DNA from: Zygnema cylindricum
Lineage: Eukaryota > Streptophyta > Zygnematophyceae > Zygnematales > Zygnemataceae
NCBI GenBank assembly: GCA_037447655.1
Contig: JBBHKE010001879.1
Location: forward strand, 1 to 64,000
Direction: 5' to 3'
DNA: 64,000 nt
Each line of letters starts with the position of its first letter. The stretch's first letter is position 1. The position numbers were made by a program, and so were the translations under genes. Shown in pieces: positions 26,952-62,900 of this stretch. The notes below the pieces were generated by a model. It made no database searches. It had not been told where the DNA came from and saw only the letters and a list, made by a program, of their open reading frames with translations.

Positions 26952-28950
26952 ATGCCTAGGCCTCGAGGAATCGAGTGGGAGCATGTTAGGTCTCCAAACG
27001 AAGATGTGGTTGGGAACAACAAAATATGCGTCTGTGTTTACTGCGAATTCGAATATAATGGTCAAGCCACTAGGATTAGAAACCACCTTCTTGGAAATGT
27101 GAAGAGTGGGGGTATTCGAGCTTGCATTTTATATTCGGAAGAGGTGAAGGCGGAGCTAAATGCATCAAGAACCGAAAAATCTTCTCATGGCTCGCAGAAA
27201 CGTGAAAATTTCCGATTTGGATGAACTCACAGGAAGTCCTGGATCTAGCCAGAGCAATAGAATACAAGGTGTGCAAACAAAAATATCAAATATTTTTAAT
27301 AAGTATAACAAGAAAGAGGTCGATGCAACATGGGCAAGGGCTTTTTTTGCTAATGGTTTGCCGTTTCAACTACTCGATGACCCATATTTTAAAGAAGCAT
27401 TGAGGAAGACCGGGGAGATAGGGGCGTCTTACAAGATACCTCACCGAAATACTATGAGAACTCGTCTCCTATCTGAGACGAAGGCGACTGTCACTAGCGA
27501 TTTGGCGAGTTACGTGGAGACGATGAAAGTCACCGGTGCCTCGATCACGTCAGACGGTTGGACAGCCGTTGATGAAACGCCTCTCTTGAACATTTTAGCT
27601 GTCACCCCCAAGGGCGACATGTTCGTCACGGCGGAAGACACTAGTGGGAAAATCAAGGATGCCGAATACGTGTGTAAGGTGTTGGAGAAGGGAGTTCTTG
27701 CGGTGGGGATCGAGCAAGTGGTGCAAGTTGTGACAGATTCTGCTGCTGTAAACAAGGCTGCAGCCTCGTTGCTCGTGATGAAGTACCCTTCCATCAAGTG
27801 GACGCCATGCTCTACCCACGTATTGTATCTAATGTTGGAGGATTGGGGCAAATTGACATTTATTTCTACACCAGTTCGACAGGCAAAAGAGGTATTAAAA
27901 TTCATCACGAATCATCATATAAGTGCAGTCTTGTTCAATAAAATCTCACCTCTTAGGGTTTTGGAACCGAGAGAGACTAGGTTTGCAACAAATTTTATCA
28001 TGCTACAAGGGTTTTTATATGTGAAGGAAAAACTGGAGATCTTAATGTTTGATGATGGTTATAAGCAATGGATAAGCAAGTCTACATACAGGTTTGAGGG
28101 TGATAAGATTAAAGGCCATATTTTGAGTTTGGAGTTTTGGATCAGAATGACGGAGGCAGTGACAGTTTCAGAGCCAGTGGTGTGGCTTATGAGGGAATGT
28201 GACAAAGGGGCCCCAAATGTGGGAAAGGTTTATTATGGTTTTTATAGTATTGGGCAGTTTTTACATAAGTTATCCAGCAATGGAGGAGAAAGAAGTTACG
28301 AGGGCTTGCATATTTTGGAGGAGCTCAAAGCATCTTGGTTTGCCAGATGGGAGATGGCACATAGCCCTATATATGATGCCGGCTTTGTACTCGATCCCGA
28401 GTACCAAAGTTTTGCCTACGGCCAGCATTCAAACTTGAAAGTAATGGAAGGTTTTCAGATAATGCTCGAAAAGATGTTACCAAATGTGGGGGACCAAGCT
28501 GAGGCCTACATTGAGCTTTCTAAGTATAGAGGTTTTGAGGGTGTCTTTGGGAGGGAGGTAACAAAGGCTTGTGCCAAAAAGATGCCGGGGTGGAAGTGGT
28601 GGCAGCAGTTTGGGGTTGTCACCCCTACCTTGCAGAAGGTAGCAATTCGGGTTCTTGCTCAGTGCTCAGTTGGTAGTTCATGTGAGAGGAATTGGTCAAC
28701 CTATGACCATATTCACTCTAAGAAAAGAAATAGGGTGACACTTAAACGAGCTAATGATTTGGTCTGGGTTTTTAGCAATCTCAGGTTATTGCAAAACACC
28801 AAAGATGTTAGTTATGAAGAGGATATGATAGCATGGGAGGAAGAGGAAAGGGAGGTAGAAGAAGATGAGTATGATGTAGAGATGTTTGTGTTGTTATTGG
28901 AAGATTCAGTTTCGCACATGCGTGCGCGTATTTTGTGCGTACGTAATTAG
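26952..28950 (+). CDS. hAT-family transposase (BED finger, DUF659, hAT C-terminal domain)
   Basis: Cut-and-paste DNA transposase. A BED-type zinc finger (CVCVYCEFEYNG..RIRNHLLG) is encoded from the ATG at 26952 in one frame, open to 27224. The rest is a 596-residue frame ending at 28950 in another phase. The catalytic regions look intact: the DUF659 part has ITSDGWTAVD (first Asp) and VVTDSAAVNK (second Asp), then the hAT CxxH element PCSTHVL, and near the C-terminus the dimerisation domain with SVGSSCERNWS (the catalytic Glu context) and VTLKRANDLVWVFSNLRLL. An acidic tail follows. Joining the BED part to the main frame needs either a short intron (GT near 27143, AG near 27193) or a one-base frameshift; I cannot tell which. 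No matching terminal inverted repeats were found nearby, so it could be a decayed autonomous element or a stranded, possibly domesticated, copy. Confidence 0.82.
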
Positions 28951-30904: not shown

Positions 30905-31235
30905 TAAGACTAAAATCGCAAGGTACCCGGGCGGTATTTTGCGAAGTTATGGCGGCTATTAATTATCAATTCTATTTCAGGTTTTGGAATCAAAATTTGG
31001 GGGCGCCGATATAGAGTTCATAACACTAATAACGATTCGTGATTAGTGTTGTGTATTTGTAAGGATTTGCCGATAACCAATATTGGCTTTTTTTCGGGTA
31101 GTCGATATCGATAACCATCGGCGATATTTGTACGGACCGTACAAATAAATGTTCGGCCAGTACACTCAACTTTATGTTAGAAATCGGCGATATTCAAGTT
31201 ATCACAAGGGCGCCAAAGTGTTTACTTGGGAAAAT

Positions 31236-31306
31236 GGCCAAGTCGGGGATCGAACGCGGGACCTGTGCAAACCGTACACTAGCTCTACCATCTGAGCTAC
31301 CCGGCC
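31236..31306 (-). ncRNA. tRNA-like sequence in TRIM left LTR
   Basis: Seventy-one nt on the minus strand with tRNA layout: 7-bp acceptor stem (GGCCGGG with CTTGGCC, two G-U pairs), a D arm containing the box A-like TAGCTCAGATGG, a 4-bp anticodon stem, and a T loop TTCGATC giving box B. The T stem has two mismatches and position 33 is C rather than U, so it is unlikely to act as a tRNA. A Pol III promoter role is inferred. Confidence 0.65.
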
Positions 31307-31542
31307 GATGTGTACGCAAGCGCCTAATACCAAATTTATACGGCGATGAGCGGCACACTGGTAACCCAGCTTAGAGCGCGATACACACGTGTGGAGTCCA
31401 AAATGGACAGTTCTCCAACACGCCCTCTCACGGTGTACTCCATCTCGTGTGGCTTGCCATCGCCCCCTGGCTCCGATACCATGTTAGAAATCGGCGATAA
31501 TCAATTTAAACCAAGGGCGCCAAAGTGTTAACTTTGGAAAAT

Positions 31543-31613
31543 GGCCAAGCCGAGGATCGAACGCGGGACCTGTGCAAACCGTACACTAGCTCTACCAACT
31601 GAGCTACCCGGCC
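31543..31613 (-). ncRNA. tRNA-like sequence in TRIM right LTR
   Basis: Same 71-nt arrangement as the left LTR copy, with box A TAGCTCAGTTGG and box B GTTCGATCC. Its T stem is better paired (one mismatch). The anticodon position reads GGT (threonine-like), but C33 replaces the universal U33. Interpreted as an LTR-borne tRNA-like Pol III promoter, not a functional tRNA gene. Confidence 0.68.
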
Positions 31614-32327
31614 GATGTGTACGCAAGCGCCTAATACCGAATTTATACGGCGATGAGCGGCGCAATGGTAAACCAGCTTACAGCGCGATACACACCTGTG
31701 GAGTCCAAAGTGGACAGTTCTCCAACACTGTGCGTGTTATTCTCCGGAGGCACCGCGGACCCCTTTCCCCCCGATTTCAGTAGAAAATTGCAATAAATAA
31801 ATATATATTTCTACTATTTTATAAAAGATTAACATTTCCTCAAATAAGTGCCCATGAATTGTCAAAAGATGGTGGCGGTAGGCTGCAGTAAATGGTGGCA
31901 GTCTGACAGATGTGCTTGTTTAATCTGTTCGTCTGTACGTATGTTTTTCGAAAAAGTTTGATTTAAAATTTTACAATGTAATTTAATTTGTTCGTTTCAA
32001 TATTATATTTTTAGAACTATATAGTATTGTTTTAAATTTATTGACATTTATATGTTGCGTTGTTCGTAATAGATTTTAGTCAAACGGATACGAAACACAA
32101 TACATTATACGGCATACCACGCTATATAAAGTAAATAATATAATACAGTATGTTATGCATACAATATTTTTTAAAAGTTATCGCCGATATGGAATTTGTT
32201 GGTCTTTGGCGGATATATCGGGACCTCTGACCGTTCGATAACCAATAACTATTGGTATCGATGTTATCGCGATAAATTTTTAACCGGTACACAACACTAG
32301 TAAGAACGACATAGTAAACTTAACGGT

Positions 32328-41477: not shown

Positions 41478-42893
41478 TGGGTCCACTCACTGTAGGGGAG
41501 TATTCTTCCCCTTCTCTCTTTCCAATTCATTATTGGGGAGTATTCTTCCCCTTCTCTCTTTGAGTCATTTTCACCTTCATTCTTTCTCATGGTGTATATA
41601 TTTTTTGACTTCTCATATTTAAGTTTGTTGGTATATATGTTTGTGAGCATGACTTTGCTGGTTGTGATGCATTTTCGCTTACTTGTGGCTCATGCACGAA
41701 AGCTGTTATGCCGCATCGTGTCGATAGCTCGAAGGCACAATACCATGCCCCTACGCGCGATATTTGGCGCGCGCGCACGATATATTGCACTCACACGCGA
41801 TATTATAAATGCACGCGCGAGATTTCTCATGCAAGCGCGGTATTTCTCACGCAAGCGCGCTGTTTCGCATGCATGCATTGTTTAAAGCACGCGCGCGCGG
41901 TATTTCGCATGCACGTGCGGTTTTATGCATGCACGCGCGATTTTAGGCGTACACGCACGATTTTGGCACGCGTGCATGGTTTTCGTTTGCACGTTCGATT
42001 TCACGCTGGTTCATCTATTTATATGTTTCGGTGAAAAGTACTAATTTCGTGCTAGACGTTTCGTTTCGTGCGCAGGTACACACTTTTCGAGTATTTTGTG
42101 CGATACCTTTTATTTCGTGCGTAGGTACTACAATTTCGAAGTATGGACATGGAGTATCGTTTGGAGGCGAATCGCAATTTCCGGGCGACGCTTCGATACA
42201 CCATTTATTTTTTTATTTAAGTCGCGAACCCATGTAGGTTTGTGCGCACATGTAGTTAAGGAGGGTTTTTACCCTCGAACAGTGGATTTTGTTAGGCGTA
42301 CGGCAGACGATGTTGGTCGCCCATTGGCCAACATCTTAAGTAGTTTCATGCATGTTAAGTAGACTAGACGTAGGCTAATTTTGCTTAGGCCTACCGTAGC
42401 TCTTACTTAGCCTAATTCTCAAACTTAGAGAATTTAGCTTTTGGACAAGAATTTTCTCTTGGCAGCTTCGCTTCTCTTTTGCTCACTCTCACCGATTGCC
42501 CACGTGTCTTTCTTCTCTTTGCTAGCTAGCTGTAGAGGCTAGATAGAGTAAGACTATTCTCCTTTTTTTTTTGCCCTCGTTTTTAATCCACACGGCCTAA
42601 GGCCACGTCCGGAAGGTTTCCTCCAAAGTTTGGCATTTGATGGAAGTGTGAGATTGGAGATCCTGAATGAGCACATCTAGACCTTGCTGTGTTTTCCTTT
42701 GGCAGCTTGACGGTTTGGTTGTGTGTGTGTCTCTTTGTATTTCGGTTGGCTTGAATGGAGTATATTTTTGATCGGATTTGGATTTTCCCTTGTTCCGGTG
42801 GGAATATTTCTTGCTTTGTTGTTATAACGAGATAACTCTTGTAGAGAATGTGGTAAAGACCAGAGAGCCTAGTGGCTACCTCTTGGCTTAGTA
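41478..42893 (+). repeat. Right LTR of the gypsy-like element
   Basis: Begins after a G-rich polypurine tract at about TGGGTCCACTCACTG and ends CTTGGCTTAGTA. The first 220 bp (to about 41699) are repeated at 42896-43121; the remainder matches the left LTR. It includes a CT-rich duplicated GGGGAGTATTCTTCCCCTTC and the CACGCGCG minisatellite (41725-41960). Confidence 0.65.
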
Positions 42894-42895
42894 TA

Positions 42896-43121
42896 AATTA
42901 TTGGGTCCACTCACTATACGGGAGTATTCTTCCCCTTCTCTTTCCACTTCATTATAGGGGAGTATTCTTCCCCTTCTCTCTTTGGGTCATTTTCACCTTT
43001 ATTCCTTCTCATGGTGTATATATTTTTTGACTTTTCATATTTAAGTTTGTTGGTAAATGTGTTTGTGAGCATGACTTTGCTGGTTTTGATGCATCTTCGC
43101 TTGCTTGTCGCTCATGCACGA
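42896..43121 (+). repeat. Truncated extra LTR start
   Basis: Repeats 41472-41699, from AATTATTGGGTCCACTCAC to CTCATGCACGA. It stops abruptly at the dispersed repeat that begins at 43128. It implies a former tandem LTR-interior-LTR array or a second copy. Confidence 0.65.
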
Positions 43122-44148: not shown

Positions 44149-47100
44149 TTGTGTCACTTTTGCAAGAAACCACGACACCATATGGCATAGTGTACTAAGT
44201 TAACCGAGCTTCAGTTAAAGGACGGGCAGCCCGTTTAACACAGAGAGGAAAAAAAAAGGCCCTTGTGACACAGGTATATGAGGCACAATTCGAGGTCGAG
44301 GACGATGAGCTCCTATTCGATGTGGAGTTGGAGGCGAAAACCGAGGTCGAAATTCCACGAAAGCAGAAATGTGATTTCGATGGATTGCAAGGTGAAGCAG
44401 ACTAGATTGTAGATTCAGGTGCCTCCATGTACATGTGTAAGGATACACACCTATTCACTAAGATAAGAAAAATTCCCACCGTAGAGATAAAGTACGGGGA
44501 TGGGAGGATAGTCACTACTACTTTTGTAGGATCGTTAGATCTGAAAGTGTTAGTAGAAACAAAGACATACATAGTTACATTCTCCAATGTATTGTTTATT
44601 CCGGAGCTGAACAAAAACCTCATCTCTACATCTGTATTAGATGATAAGGGTTTTGATACTAGCACAAAGAAAGGAGTCTTCACTGCTAGTTTTGAGGAAG
44701 AAGTTAATTTCACTGCTGAAAAAGGTAGCCAAATGATATTTAGGCTGATTTTAAGCACTGAGAAGAAGAGACTTTATTATGCTGGTGTTCATGATATAAT
44801 GTTGTGGCATAAGAGGCTTGGGCATGTGAATATAGATAAGTTAAATGGGATGAAAAAGATGGAGTAGTGGAAGGGATTTAGTTTAGTGAGAGTGAGAATC
44901 TAAGTGATTGCAGTGGACATGCTCAAGGTAAAGCACACAGGTTACCTTTCCCAAAATCTGCCATCTCTAGGGGAGAAAAGATTTTATATTTGGTACACAC
45001 AAACATTTGGGGACCAGCCAAAGTGCCCTCACCCGGGGGGAAGAGATTTATAATGACTATCACCCATGATTGGTCTCGGTATTCCAAGGTGTATTTTTTG
45101 AAAAATAAGTCAGAGGCTCAGGAATGTTTTAGACAATATAGGGCATGGAGTGAAAAACTCCATGAAACCCTAATCAAGAGAGTAAGGTGTGACATTGGTG
45201 GAGAGTATACCTTCTAACTAGTTTGAGGATTTTTTGAGGGAAAATAGAGTCCAACACCAAAAGACAGTTCCAAAAAAACCTGGAACAGAATGGGGTAGCT
45301 CAAAGATTATATAGGACACAAAGTGATATTACTAGAAGTATGTTGTCGGATAAAAAGATAGGAAAAATGTTTTGGGCCGAAGCAATGAACTGTGTTAATT
45401 ACTTCAAAAATAGAGTTTATATCAGCGGTAAAAGGCTAAACATATTATGAGAGATGGACCGGCCGAAAACCAAACATATCTCACTTAAAGGTTTTCGGCA
45501 GCCAAGTGTTTAGTCTAGATACATATCGGTCTAATTGGAAACTAGATCCTAAAAGAAACCTGGGGTACTTATTAGGTTATGATGAGGATGTAAAAAAACA
45601 CAGTGTTTATGATCTAAAAAGGGAGAATATAATCTTAGTAAAACATGTAGTAGTTATGGATTAAAGAAAGTTTGTGGATTCCTTCATGTATACAATGTCA
45701 GTAAAAAATAGATTTGAGTCATAAAATTCTGATGACTTTCAGCTTCCTAACCATCCAGGTTTCAGAGAAGATGACATACTTGCAGGTACAAATCAGACCG
45801 AGAAGGAGTTCGCTGCGGAAACTCCAGTGACAACTCTACCCAAAGCGGAAGACGTGGTGGAAATTGAATTGGAATCGAGGGACAGGGGAGAAGCCGAGAT
45901 TATTCGAAAGAACCCAAAAGAACTATCTATTCCGGCCACACATTTTGAGGGAGGAAGTAGAAGTAGCAAAAGGTTGCAAGAAAAACAGGTTAATAACAAG
46001 GTAACAAAACTATCTCATCCAGATGAACCTCAGACTTATGGAGAGGCGATGAATTGTCCAGAAAGGAACCGGTGGAAGATAACCATCAATGAGGAGATGG
46101 CTTCAATTATGGCGGCCGATACTTGAGAGCTGGTGGATTGTCCGCCTAATTGAAAACCAAACGTTTTTAAGTGGGTGTTCAAATTAAAACTGAACCCAGA
46201 TAACATCATTAAGCGCTACAAGGCCCAATTAGTGGCAAAAAGATAACATCATTGAGCGCTAAAAGGCCCGGTTAGTGGCAAAAGGATTTCCACAGACAAA
46301 GGGAATCGACTACGAGGAAACCTTTGCCCCGGTCGTCAGATTTCCCTCGATCCGCATAATTCTCAGTCTGACAGCAGCGGAAGACATGAAGGTGCATCAG
46401 ATGGACATCAAGACAACCTTTTTGCATGGAGAATTAGAAGAGGAGATCTTCATGCGACAACGCGAAGGATTTGTGGAGCAAGGAGAGGAGAGTAAGGTAT
46501 GTCGGCTGATAAAATCTCTTTATAGTTTGAAACAGGCGCCCCGACAGTGGTATAAGAAGCTTGATGAGTTTTTTACCGGTCTAGGATATATCCGGATCAC
46601 CTCAAATCACTCAGTCTATGTTTTGAAGATGATAAAGGTGTTATTTTTATTGCAATTTATGTTGAGGATTTGTTTGTTTTAAATAAATCAATAGACAAAA
46701 TTAATAAACCGAAATCCGATCTTAAGGGGAGATTTGAGATGAAAGATATGGGGGAGGCAAGATATATTTTGGGAATTCAAGTAGAAAGAGACCAAGAAAG
46801 AAAGATAATAAGATTAACTCAGAAAGAAGCAATAGGGAACATTTTAGAAAAGTTTCAGATGGATAAGACTAATAGTTGTACAACTCCAATGGAGTTAAAG
46901 AAGGGAAGTGAGGGGGGTGTGGAAGAAAGAGTCATAATCATAGACGAGGAATTAGGTCTTGAAAAACATAATTTCATGCAGACTATTCCTTACAGGCAAG
47001 TAGTGGGAAGCTTAATTTATTTTATCAATTGTACCCGGCCGGATTTAGTAGGAGTGTTGAGTATAAGTCTAAATGCTCCCACTAAGAGAGATAAGGAGGC

Positions 47101-47301
47101 AGTGCTGAGTAGAAGTCTAAATGCTCCCACTAAGAGAGATAAGAAGGCACCTAAGAAAGTCCCTATAAATTTGATAGGAACTAGGGATCTATGGTTGCAT
47201 TTGGGTGGGGGGAATACTGACATTACTACTTGGAGTGATGCTAGTTATGGTGATGCTCCGATGAGGAGATGTACTTCTGGATATGTATTGTATGTGGGCT
47301 G
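44149..47301 (+). pseudogene. Decayed Ty1/copia polyprotein
   Basis: Domains occur in copia order. A CCHC knuckle (CHFCKKPRHHMA then a stop then C) lies at about 44152. A protease with VDSGASMYM is at 44409. The GAG-pre-integrase motif LWHKRLGHVN is near 44800. An integrase core fragment with TNIWGPA is at 44990-45217. A linker region is at 45.8-46.1 kb. The reverse transcriptase starts AKGFPQTKGIDYEETFAPVV at 46275 and includes SLYSLKQAPRQW. It is followed by ARYILGIQV and an RNase H start with SDASYGDAPMRRCTSGYV near 47225. Many stops and frameshifts separate the pieces, and a duplicated ~35-bp stretch (SLNAPTKRDK repeated) sits at 47060-47150. The RNase H domain is cut off. Internal LTRs were not found. 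Confidence 0.85.
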
Positions 47302-48698
47302 AAGACTTTTAAGTGCACGTGGCGGCTTCCATCTTTATTCATTAACAGGATCGAGCAGCCAAGATCTGACGGCCAAGAACGATTGCCGAGAGAGTACTTT
47401 GAATGTTTGACCCGCTTGCTGACATTAGCAGAGAGACAAAGCTACCCGTTTGTCGATGTAGGCTGAGGGGCAATGTAACCCATTTGGTGACGTTGGCCAG
47501 AGGACACGCCATTTACGGGTGCAGACGGACGGAAAGTTGGCCTATTTATAGGTTTTCAAACGGACGACCAAAGGTCTATAATTTGAATAAAGAAGATGTA
47601 GTTTACAAATTTCCATTCCAATCATGTTTTGTATTTTGATGTTTTCACCATAGCATTTTTGGTAATAAAAATTGCTTTTGTAGGAAAAGGTCGTGATATA
47701 AATACGTCGGATTTGAGAAGTCAAAATTCGTCAACTTGCGTTAATTTTTTTCCGATTCTGTACGAACTCTGTGAGCATTTGTACTAGCCACGAGGGCAAG
47801 AGACCAAGCTAATGTTATGTGGACAAAAGCTTCTTCTAATTTAAAGTTATCCTTATGTGAGTGTTTTCCAATGTGGATGTGTATTTTCCAATGTGTGGAA
47901 TGTGTGGTTGGAATCGTTTGTAGTAATGGGATTTTCTGAGAGGTATGAGATCCTGTTACATGAACACTGACTTTTAGGAAAGCGTAACAATAAACGCTTA
48001 ACTTTACCGGGGGGACGCTTTGCTTTTAGCGCCCCGTCACCGTAACATACCGCAGTTCAGATAGTCCCTTTTGTCGAACTGCTCTACCCGAATTGTGGCA
48101 TCAATAAAATTAACCGAACTAAACCGAACCTCAGTGGGAGCAAGCTGCGACTAGCCGACTTCAAACGCACTTTTTCCACTTTTGTCCAAATTATTACCGG
48201 CGCCGTCATAAATGATGGAAGCATTTGTTGGTCGGCTGAGCAGCCGGCAGTGTCGCCACTGTACGGATCAGATTCGTGGCATTTATGCCCGCGCGTCAGA
48301 TGTTTGGGAAGTTCGTGAGGACAAACCTTTACTGTAGCATCCCGAACGTAAAGTACAAGTTTACTGGTACGATCTCCTGTAGGTATACAAATCTGAAAAT
48401 GCAGGAGATTCTACCAGAATATGCATTGCGCGCCAAATATGCTACATTTATCTTTATATCGCTTTAATTTAGTTTGGAATGTCACTCTTTCGCTCATCTT
48501 CTCCCTCTCCTCCCTTTTCAACTCTCCCTTTGTCTTCTTTTCCCTCCCGCCTCCTCTCCTACCTCTTCTTCCCCAATCAGCCTCAAACACATATAAAATA
48601 TTTTTCTCTAACCTTGAAGGTAACAGAGTGCAGAAGTCCGTTTTGTAGCTGGATTTCTAAACAGAAAAAGAAAAAGATATAAGGACTGAGGGACGGCG
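47302..48698. other. Interval upstream of the aspartic protease gene
   Basis: Contains no clear gene. The first 350 bases may be the copia 3' end. From about 48478 the sequence is CT-rich and probably forms the promoter or 5' leader of the protease gene. Confidence 0.4.
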
Positions 48699-57078: not shown

Positions 57079-57573
57079 CTGATAGACAAGATAAACAGAT
57101 ATAGCAGCAGATACACCACAGCGGAAGCACGATAAAGACAACAAAGATATCCAGCAGAAATAAAAAAATTATTTCACCAGAGGCTTTTCCCTCCTTAATA
57201 CAAATCAAAGATACTCTCCCATACTCACACTCCCACTAAATACCCTCTACACAAGCAAAGAACAAATATCACAAGAATCAATACAAAGCATAATCCCTCG
57301 ACTAAAGATGACCAGGTAAACGCACAGGTGCGCCGGCCACAGTCTACAGCTCCTGAGCTACCTTGAGCTACCCTTCTCTTCCAGAATTCTCTATCTATAA
57401 ACCAACCAAAGTGTGGCAGGATCGTCTCAGAGTCGGCCGTACAAATTGTACTGCCACTTCACCGTACACATCGAATATTTCATCGGACGCGAAGCATGAA
57501 TCGCGTCTGTAATCCACGAATACAAATTAGTAAAGAATCGGCTGACGCCCGATTCTCAGAATTGAATCTAACA
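57079..57573 (-). repeat. 3' LTR of the copia element
   Basis: 495 bp. On the minus strand it begins TGTTAGATTCAATTC and ends CTTGTCTATCA. The first 70 bases on the + strand match the window end from 63927 with few differences, which identifies it as an LTR. Confidence 0.88.
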
Positions 57574-59988: not shown

Positions 59989-62900
59989 TAATTTGCGAAT
60001 CTCATAAAGACCATCAGCAGTCATGATGAAATCATCTACGTACACGGAGAAAATTACTTGACTCGTTCGTTCTCCTTTTGTGTACGCTCCAAAATCTGAA
60101 ACCGTACGTAAAAATCCATACCTCGTTAGTACCCTGTGATGCAGAGGTACCAAGTCCGCGGAGCTTATTTCAATCTGTAGAGAGATTTCATGAGACGCCA
60201 TACTTTTCCTTTCTGTGATGTCACGCCCTCCGGTACTTTCATAAACACTTTTTCTTCCAAATTACTGTTAAGAAACGCGGTCTCCACATCCATCTGGTGT
60301 ACGTGTTTCTTCCCTACCGCAGCGATAGCGATAATTATTCTAAGAGAATCGAATTTGACGACTGGAGCGTAAGTCTCCGTGTAATCCACTACTTCAACTT
60401 GTTGAAATCCTTTGCAGATGAGTTGAGCCTTGTATTTGATAACTTCACCCGAGGCTCCAGTTTTTGTTTTAAAGATCCATTTACCACCGATAACATTTTT
60501 CCCTTTTGGTAAATCCACTTTTTCAAAGGTGCGATTTTCAACGATTGAAGCATATTTCTTCTCCCATGCATGCTTCCACTTAGTCTCCCAATAACAAGAA
60601 TTTATTGCTTCGGAGTACGATTGGGGGTCTCCAGCAAGATTCATGCAAAGTGATTGCTATAATAGGAAATCCGACTCTTTCGAATCAGAAATATAATAAT
60701 GAGCATTTGCAGCTTCCCTTCCCTTCCGGTCGAAAGATAGTCGGGCTGCTTCTTGCCTTTATTTTCACGATCACTTCGTCTAACGGCAACGTTGACCTCT
60801 TTAGCATGGTTTTCATTGATTAAGATCGGTGAGGGAGGTTGAGAATTCTCGGATTTATGTGTGGCAGATGACATTTTGGAATGATTAGAAGCATAGCTTT
60901 AAGGGTCGAAGTCAATTTCGGGTTCCTCCTTCAATTCAGGTTTCAATGTCTTTGTACTGACATTGGAGTCCAACATAGTCTCAGAATTAGAATCGCCAAT
61001 GTCCGGAAATGCTTGATTTTTTGAGATTTCATGAAAGTCCAAATTCTTCTTCAATGTTTTGGATTTTTGAATCGCAGATTTTAAATCTTTGTGAAAGTCA
61101 ACATTGCGGGATTCTTCCACAATGTGATTTTCAGGATCGTACACTCGGTACAGGGTTCCTTTCGAGCTATATCCGACGAAAATTTTGGACCAGCTCTTCG
61201 CAACAAATTTTTCTTTCCTCTTAGTTTGTTGAATGTATACCTTGGCATGACATCCCCAAATTATGAGATGATGTATAGTGGGCTTTCGGCCATGCCACAG
61301 TTCATAGAGAGTCTTATCTCCGGAAACAGAGGTAAGACGAGGATTGCAAATATAATTTGCCGTAAGGATTGCTTCTCCCTATAAGTAGATTTCGTTCCCC
61401 GAGGTGTGGACCATTGCTCGGACCATTTCTTGCAATGTCCGGTTCTTCCTCTCGGCAACTCTGTTTAATTTCGGAGAGTAACGGGCAGTGAATTATTGTT
61501 GAATTCCCCATTCCTAGGAATAGCCTTCAAAGATTATATATTCTCCACCGTTATCCAACCAGATAGATTTCAATTTCTGGTCACACTGACGTTCTACCAT
61601 AACATGCCATTCTTTGAACTTCTCAAATGCGTTAGATTTCCGTTTTAGAAGATAAACCCAAGAGTATCGAGAGAAATCATCAACGATTACCATGAAGTAC
61701 GGATTTCCACCGACGCTTTCTGGTTTTATGTGTCCACATAAATCGACGTGGACGAGCTCTAATAAATTTTGAGCTCTAATAAATTTTGGGCTCTATAATT
61801 GGGATCCTTGATAAGGTAAGGTTTGAGAATTTGTCGACCTTTACTATAACCTCACATCTATTAACCTTTTCCCCGGATGTGAGGTCTAAACCGGTTACAA
61901 AACCGGTTTTGATCATGCGCCTTAAATTTCCTTCTGAGGTGTGGCACATGCGGTGATGCCACAAGCTCAGATTTCCCTTTAGTTCAAAAATTTGGCTTAT
62001 TATGTCATTGGGGGTAGGAGGCGTGGTCGGCTGTTTTCAGTTGAGCTTGCTGTGCATGGATTCTGTCACCATGCCTTTTTCAATTACAGTTCCGTCTTTT
62101 CGTAATATCTGAATCGTCCCGTCACCGTACGAGAGGATGCTACATCTGGTTCGTTGAATTTGTGGTACGGAGAGAAGGTCCATCGAACCGTTCGGAATAT
62201 ATATTGCGTTTAACAATTTTGTTTGAGTTAAGTATTTTGTTCCATCGGCTCCCTACCTCGACAGATTTAACCGTACAGTACTGACAGTTACAACCGTGAT
62301 GACGTCACCACTTGCCACCGTGATGCGCTTCGGAACTGTTAACTCGCGCATATCGCCAAATAGGGTTGCGTTAGTGCCGACGTGGTTTGACGCACCCGAA
62401 TCGATTACCCAATCTTTTCCCGATTTTGGTGTCGTCACACGTGGTGGCAAGAAAATTTAATAAGGCGAAAGTCTTACCGCCTGCTTGTTCAAAGTTATTC
62501 GAATTGAATAAATTTTCATGTCCACCGAAGCAGCCTCTGCAGCCGTAACCTCTTACTCCATGTCTGCCGCCTCTTCGACCGCCATTGCGGCCGCCTCTGC
62601 CGCCGCCATTGTCATTCTTGGCGAAACATTGTGGGCTGATGTGGCCCCACTTTCCACAGTAGTAGCACAGCTTGTCCTTGTCCGAGCAAGCGGCTGAGAC
62701 ATGGCCAGACTTGTTACAGCGAAAACATGTGTTGTCGCCAGACTGAGATTTCCAATTTGTAGAACAGCTTGGTTGGTCCTTTCCTCTAAAACCTCCACTA
62801 GTCCATCTAGGACCTCTACCTCTACCACCCCCTTTACCGCGGAGATAATTAATATCCGTGGCATCGGGATAGGTTACATTGAGAGTTCCTGTACTATTAG

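Follow-up and report, generated by a model that had tools for sequence, protein, structure and literature searches.

A Helenus-type TRIM of Zygnema cylindricum with a tRNA-like sequence in each LTR and a candidate Pol III transcription plan

A 64,000-nt stretch of Zygnema cylindricum DNA (contig JBBHKE010001879.1, hereafter the window) contains a short repeat in which a tRNA-like sequence occurs twice. The locus raises the question of whether this is an LTR element whose LTRs carry tRNA-like sequences, a pair of SINEs or a pair of tRNA genes, and of what part the tRNA-like sequence may play in it.

Structure of the element

The 553-bp TRIM occupies 31175–31727 of the window on the minus strand and follows an LTR-PBS-PPT-LTR plan without coding capacity. 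The extent of the element, its two 246-bp LTRs and its 61-bp interior agreed with the original prediction. The following features could be assigned:

31482–31727, minus strand: 5' LTR, 246 bp, TG...CA ends
31421–31481, minus strand: interior, 61 bp
31175–31420, minus strand: 3' LTR, 246 bp, TG...CA ends
31470–31481, minus strand: primer-binding site (PBS) TGGTATCGGAGC, adjoining the 5' LTR at the start of the interior
31421–31431, minus strand: purine tract GTGAGAGGGCG, adjoining the 3' LTR at the end of the interior
31542–31613, minus strand: tRNA-like sequence of the 5' LTR, 72 nt, LTR positions 115–186, called by ARAGORN and by Rfam with permissive filters
31235–31306, minus strand: tRNA-like sequence of the 3' LTR, 72 nt, called by neither ARAGORN nor Rfam
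31595–31606, minus strand: box A, TAGCTCAGTTGG
31553–31563, minus strand: box B region, CGTTCGATCCT
31538–31541, minus strand: TTTT directly 3' of the 5'-LTR tRNA-like part, candidate Pol III terminator
31231–31234, minus strand: TTTT 3' of the 3'-LTR tRNA-like part, where a Pol III genomic RNA is predicted to end
31641–31647, minus strand: TATAAAT, 34 nt upstream of the 5'-LTR tRNA-like part

Both LTRs open with TGTTGG and close with TAACA. They had been described as exactly equal, which holds for their length only, as 17 of 246 positions differ (93% identity; 5 transitions and 12 transversions; K2P 0.073). A tRNA-Met-type primer site and a purine tract had been expected in the interior and were found there; the former is presumably the usual plant initiator tRNA-Met PBS with one base altered. 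Each LTR contains the proposed tRNA sequence, with a length of 72 nt instead of 71 nt, and in both LTRs it runs in sense with the element, as had been claimed. The window copy is atypical in that box B is altered and the tRNA score is weak, and its flanks, CACAG and TAAAG, match at three of five TSD positions and form no perfect TSD. A 12-nt copy of the U5 end of the LTR (ATCGGCGATATT) lies at 31117–31128, 46 bp beyond the 3' end of the element, and is possibly due to chance or a remnant of another LTR.

Genomic copies, TSDs and solo LTRs

The assembly (352.8 Mb in 2689 contigs) was searched with the whole element; 40 of 306 candidates were scored, and at least 53 matching stretches with 71–100% identity were listed. 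A pattern representing nucleotides 1–32 of the tRNA-like part, with up to three mismatches allowed, had 271 matches in the genome against 1 for the reversed-pattern control, and together with the listed element copies this excludes chance as the origin of the tRNA-bearing element. Forty loci were fetched from the element search. At least two LTR pieces were present in 37 of them, and five (L028, L030, L041, L044 and L046) are arrays of three LTRs, some truncated, with two interiors.

For the TSD analysis, element ends were read at 33 loci, the 7 loci with truncated outer LTRs being omitted; 26 were tested, and 24 could be scored, as 2 had no recognisable 3' end. Perfect 5-bp TSDs flank 14 of the 24 elements and at least four of five positions match in 18, compared with 0/552 and 8/552, respectively, in swapped-flank controls that paired left and right flanks of different elements. 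The two LTRs of an element diverge by a K2P of 0.012–0.259 (median 0.063, 31 elements), so many of the insertions are not recent.

The tRNA heads were further sampled as the first 30 listed pattern places without mismatch in contig order, a sample of intact heads. Twenty-nine of these sit in an LTR of the window element's family (family 1) and one (L132) in an LTR of another family. The 29 family-1 heads comprised 17 single LTRs, 8 LTRs with a second LTR piece nearby and 4 with no more than a PBS or purine tract beside them; L140 and L141 belong to a single element, as its two LTRs. The 3' end was recognisable in all but one of the 17 single LTRs, and perfect TSDs flank 11 of the remaining 16. 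When L135 and L148, which are 5'-truncated and had been scored at an extrapolated start, are excluded, perfect TSDs remain in 11 of 14 untruncated solo LTRs.

These results bear on the possibility that tandem tRNA-derived SINEs, or one duplicated SINE, mimic LTRs. Such SINEs resemble the present element in short length and in a tRNA-like head with boxes A and B, but they are without LTRs, PBS, TG...CA ends or solo LTRs with 5-bp TSDs. The copies studied here are not single units of this kind; they have TG...CA ends, 5-bp TSDs, a PBS and a purine tract, and 17 of the 29 family-1 heads lie in single LTRs. Solo LTRs with TSDs are a mark of LTR-LTR recombination, which rules out tandem SINEs and leaves that reading a negligible probability. 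The family is an LTR retrotransposon, a TRIM with tRNA-bearing LTRs as originally predicted.

Some loci have been rearranged further. Inverted LTR or interior pieces stand back to back in L059 and L060 (one locus), L066 and L024. At L032 441, L036 748/1269 and L049 1180/1395 (in element sense), foreign DNA occupies the same TA at LTR position 140–141. The insert begins with CACCG(C/T)CAATCG, inside the tRNA-like part, and in L036 and L049 its far side ends with CGGTG followed by TA. It appears to be MITE-like, and the shared site may reflect a hot spot or else a composite that was amplified.

Two further families and their mixed arrays

Two related families were met by chance during the reading of family-1 loci. 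The LTR and interior sizes are 246/61 bp in family 1, 229–231/57 bp in family 2 and about 220/65 bp in family 3. In all three families the tRNA-like part lies 52–60 nt before the LTR end, and BLAST revealed no match of family 1 to families 2 and 3 outside it; families 2 and 3 have in common the tRNA-like part and about 20 nt preceding it. In each of families 2 and 3, one copy folds as a complete cloverleaf of another sequence; the anticodons are CTG and CTT, with G33. No TTTT was present right after the tRNA-like part of the family-3 copy. A conserved hairpin at the LTR start, hinted at by eye in the three families, was rejected, as a folding z below -2 was obtained for only 1 of 10 folded starts (L132, -3.42; window, 0.07).

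The family-2 element of L132 (LTRs 1395–1625 and 1683–1911, interior of 57 bp, PBS TGGTATCAGAGCCA) has the TSD TGTTA on both sides. Its LTRs are 98–99% identical on either side of a divergent stretch that lies within the tRNA-like part. Here, the 5' LTR is a hybrid with a family-1-like tRNA 5' half (33.7 bits) and the 3' LTR carries a different, well-paired tRNA (53.6 bits). Since an insertion starts out with two like LTRs, this difference would have arisen afterwards. A second hybrid LTR, in L145 (780–1400), joins the U3 and tRNA 5' half of family 1 to the tRNA 3' half and U5 of family 3, and is followed by interior 3, a family-3 LTR, interior 1 and a family-1 LTR. Thus, different families are joined inside the tRNA-like part in two LTRs. 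L149 (1197–1920) consists of a truncated family-2 LTR, a family-1 LTR, interior 3 and a family-3 LTR (1701–1920), and mixed arrays also occur at L035 301–1140 and L159 1280–1632. In these five loci, families are joined at the PBS as well as within the tRNA-like part.

Conservation and decoding capacity of the tRNA-like part

In the window, ARAGORN called only the 5'-LTR copy, as tRNA-Thr (GGT), and Rfam with permissive filters matched this copy at 36.2 bits, while Rfam with default filters gave no tRNA match in the window or in its own locus, L048. Among 20 loci analysed with Rfam, 38 tRNA matches above the curated score were obtained in 19, the exception being the window's own locus. A gntR-DTE RNA match (E 1.7) fell under the family cut-off and was taken as chance.

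The 40 loci yielded 73 full LTRs for alignment. Far from being absent from most LTRs, the tRNA-like part is present in all 73, a count made on copies that were found through similarity to the whole element or the tRNA head, among which LTRs without this part would be under-sampled. All 20 cloverleaf pairs can be formed in 34/73 LTRs and at least 18 pairs in 67/73, and 95.7% of the cloverleaf cells are paired versus 27–46% with partners slid. Covariation across the 73 LTRs was not in excess of shuffles, so selection on pairing is not proven by these copies alone, and covariation was dropped as proof of structure. Folding of the whole-LTR alignment did not recover the cloverleaf. The box A consensus occurs in 63/73 LTRs, the box B consensus GWTCRANNC in 61/73 and a GGTTCGA(A/T)CCC box B in 51/73.

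A check suggested at the outset was whether the tRNA region is the best conserved part of the LTR. Its nucleotide diversity (0.098) is indeed lower than that of LTR 35–111 (0.146) and LTR 190–238 (0.134), but LTR 1–34 is conserved to the same degree (0.087), and among 175 overlapping 72-nt windows the tRNA-like stretch comes 17th; it therefore exceeds most of the LTR without being clearly the best conserved part. Within it, the D stem had a diversity of 0.027, box A 0.049 and box B 0.095, and the anticodon loop, at 0.279, was the most variable segment. Family 1 is divided into subfamilies A and B, and only 1 of the 22 positions diagnostic for them falls within the tRNA-like part, against 6.4 expected (hypergeometric P 0.004, assuming independent positions); this single position is in the anticodon loop.

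The copies could also be real or decaying tRNA genes that are spread by the element and serve translation, a reading consistent with the many copies called tRNA by both ARAGORN and Rfam. However, seven anticodons are present among the 73 LTRs: GGT (33), GGC (23), GTC (10) and four more. At position 33, 60 LTRs have C, 12 have T and one has A, so that 61/73 do not carry T. Families 2 and 3, with CTG and CTT beside G33, agree in this. Neither the conserved anticodon nor the U33 of a functional tRNA gene was thus found, and this variation makes retention for decoding unlikely. No close match to a parent tRNA gene was found among 20 canonical tRNAs, a sample of only high-scoring genes of few isotypes, the nearest matching at 53–55 of 77–79 aligned columns. 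We consider a role in translation very improbable.

Candidate start and stop signals

In subfamily A, the tRNA-like part is preceded by TATAAAT at a distance of 34 nt, TATAAA occurs in 36/73 LTRs, and TATATAAAA, a TATA-type candidate, was found in two family-3 LTRs. Such motifs would suit a TRIM transcribed by Pol II, in which the tRNA-like part is a captured passenger or an RNA structure only. The shuffle-level covariation and the equal conservation of LTR 1–34 point the same way, as does the T4 directly after the tRNA, which would shorten a Pol III genomic RNA. Nevertheless, GTAAATT takes the place of the TATA motif in 27/73 LTRs while box A, box B and the T-run persist, and TATA boxes also stand upstream of 22–32% of flowering-plant tRNA genes, as given in the accessible sections of PMC11700998. 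Moreover, the tRNA-like part keeps its place near the LTR end in three families, of which family 1 is otherwise without a BLAST match to the other two. Transcription by Pol II is accordingly regarded as unlikely.

A run of at least four T residues follows the tRNA-like part in 73/73 LTRs, at +0 in 52 and at about +10 in 32, with 11 having both and none having neither. When the same either-or test was applied to control site pairs, 25/222 were likewise kept in 73/73 LTRs, so the T-run is not exceptional by this test. Its longest form per LTR is 4 in 64 LTRs and 5 in 9. Among canonical tRNA genes of the same genome (40 of the 63 high-scoring genes listed), a T-run was present within 20 nt in 12/40 and within 60 nt in 28/40, and the first run had a length of 4 in 13 genes, 5 in 9 and 6–8 in 6; for flowering-plant tRNA genes, a mean poly(T) of 5.0–5.4 is given in the accessible part of PMC11700998. 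The near-minimal T-run of the element would fit a leaky terminator that lets the polymerase through at its first occurrence and stops it at the second. Truncation of LTRs close to the tRNA start (L028, L029, L046 and L148) was considered as a sign of the transcript start; this reading was dropped, as in L029/L061 other DNA interrupts the LTR within the tRNA-like part.

Proposed mechanism and helper element

Based on these sequence features, we consider it probable that the element is a Helenus-type TRIM transcribed by Pol III from its tRNA-like part, with a leaky first T-run, a stop at the second, the tRNA-like part as R and a Copia as helper. Pol III would initiate where the tRNA-like part of the 5' LTR begins, and a fraction of the polymerases would read past the minimal T4 behind it and terminate at the T-run behind the tRNA-like part of the 3' LTR. 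The predicted product is a 383-nt RNA, running from 31613 down to 31231, with an R repeat of 76 nt (the tRNA-like sequence and TTTT) at both ends, in which LTR 191–246 would serve as U5 and LTR 1–114 as U3. First-strand synthesis would be primed by initiator tRNA-Met, and an autonomous element would supply reverse transcriptase and integrase, a Copia being the likeliest source. In this scheme the tRNA-like part would act as promoter and R and not as a decoding tRNA. The Pol III reading has a weak point in RNase P and RNase Z, which could excise the tRNA-like R from the RNA. The family-3 copy with no TTTT and the altered window copy likewise count against it, whereas the hybrid LTRs count in its favour.

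A Copia element is present on the minus strand near the end of the window, with LTRs of 494 and 498 bp (57080–57573 and, running past the end of the window, 63927–64424 of the contig; 93% identical), the TSD GAATA on both sides, the PBS TGGTATCGGAGC and a Pfam RVT_2 piece at 60165–60656. Its coding part consists of several separate open stretches. The Copia and the TRIM have in common the 12-nt PBS and the 5-bp TSD length, but differ in LTR starts, LTR ends and PPT. The Copia thus appears to be the right kind of helper and not the helper itself. A PBS-pattern search of the genome combined with BLAST found no autonomous partner sharing the LTR or interior of the TRIM: 20 of the 21 candidate places were family-1 copies (15 by position and 5 by BLAST), and the remaining one, L058, shares only 14 nt. 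At L091 (C837:169507–176506), a PBS-like TGGTATCGGAGCCA is followed by a stretch that looks gag-like by eye.

A more tentative suggestion, to which we assign a rather low probability, is that the tRNA gene itself is R, one 76-nt module giving start, stop and terminal redundancy, and that unrelated families swap their ends in the tRNA. First-strand transfer takes place in R, so that families whose U3 and U5 are unrelated could exchange ends inside the tRNA. Such exchange would account for the L145 hybrid LTR and, if conversion followed later, for the one in L132 as well. Mosaics of subfamilies A and B were also considered as a sign of strand transfer in R, and hardly any were seen: 69/73 family-1 LTRs are A-A-A or B-B-B, with U3 and U5 hardly ever mixed, so exchange through R is not frequent between these subfamilies.

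Other features of the window

On the plus strand, other Copia pieces lie at 44406–47302, with RVT_2 matches at 46263–46682 and 46568–47302 in different frames. A 596-aa open frame at 27160–28950, also on the plus strand, has DUF659 and hAT dimerisation domains and is a relative of hAT transposases; its best database match is 52% identical (ENA), and its named matches were from flowering plants only, at about 30%. TAXi_N and EF_TS domain matches were also obtained in the window. The rubisco large subunit had no match in the assembly. A direct repeat of 185 bp (94%) at 41515–41699 and 42937–43121, 1422 bp apart and near an array with a 20-bp period, is possibly another short repeat element.

Relation to known elements and significance

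TRIMs bearing tRNA sequences were described in 2024 as Helenus, or TRIMp3 (Kojima 2024, PMC10886601). According to the accessible sections of that paper, Helenus elements are 311–1263 bp long, with 5-bp TSDs in plants and fungi, and their transcription by Pol III is stated as unproved. The only plant named there is Selaginella moellendorffii, with Helenus-1_SMo (120-bp LTRs and an 85-bp interior). The original prediction had placed tRNA-bearing TRIMs in a few flowering plants, which those sections do not bear out, and a literature search that covered few subscription journals found no report of a flowering-plant Helenus.

The Zygnema element resembles the Helenus of those sections in being a short, gene-less LTR element with a PBS, a PPT and a tRNA-like sequence with boxes A and B in each LTR. 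Further likenesses are the 5-bp TSD, a Copia-type length, the solo LTRs, the several families per genome and a tRNA-like part unfit for decoding. The testable features of Helenus (length, tRNA-like part, boxes A and B, PBS/PPT and TSD) were found, so the element is filed as Helenus. On its sequence features it is a Helenus, with families that differ in length from Helenus-1_SMo in the published description available to us (120/85 bp against 246/61, 229–231/57 and about 220/65 bp). The LTRs joined inside the tRNA are likewise not reported in the accessible sections of PMC10886601.

Cassandra TRIMs, the subject of PMC7215508 and PMC10853983, are alike in being short and gene-less, in carrying a Pol III-type gene sequence in the LTR and, as far as the available text of PMC7215508 goes, in forming three-LTR arrays. 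Unlike the tRNA-bearing LTR described here, however, the Cassandra LTR carries a 5S rRNA sequence, and Rfam gave no 5S rRNA match in the window or the 20 loci. The canonical plant TRIMs (Gao et al. 2016, PMC4717578) agree in size, LTR-interior-LTR plan and tandem arrays, but no tRNA-like part is reported for them, the word 'tRNA' having 0 occurrences in the main text of that paper.

The present study adds a plant genome with at least three tRNA-bearing TRIM families to a type reported in plants from one lycophyte. Added to this are the related families side by side and the few copies in which two families are joined inside the tRNA-like part. The 271 pattern-found tRNA heads would inflate predictions of tRNA genes. 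Together, the tRNA-like part, the minimal T-run and the LTR joins within the tRNA make a testable proposal for the R of an element that may be driven by Pol III, and the question of the R repeat bears on all such TRIMs.
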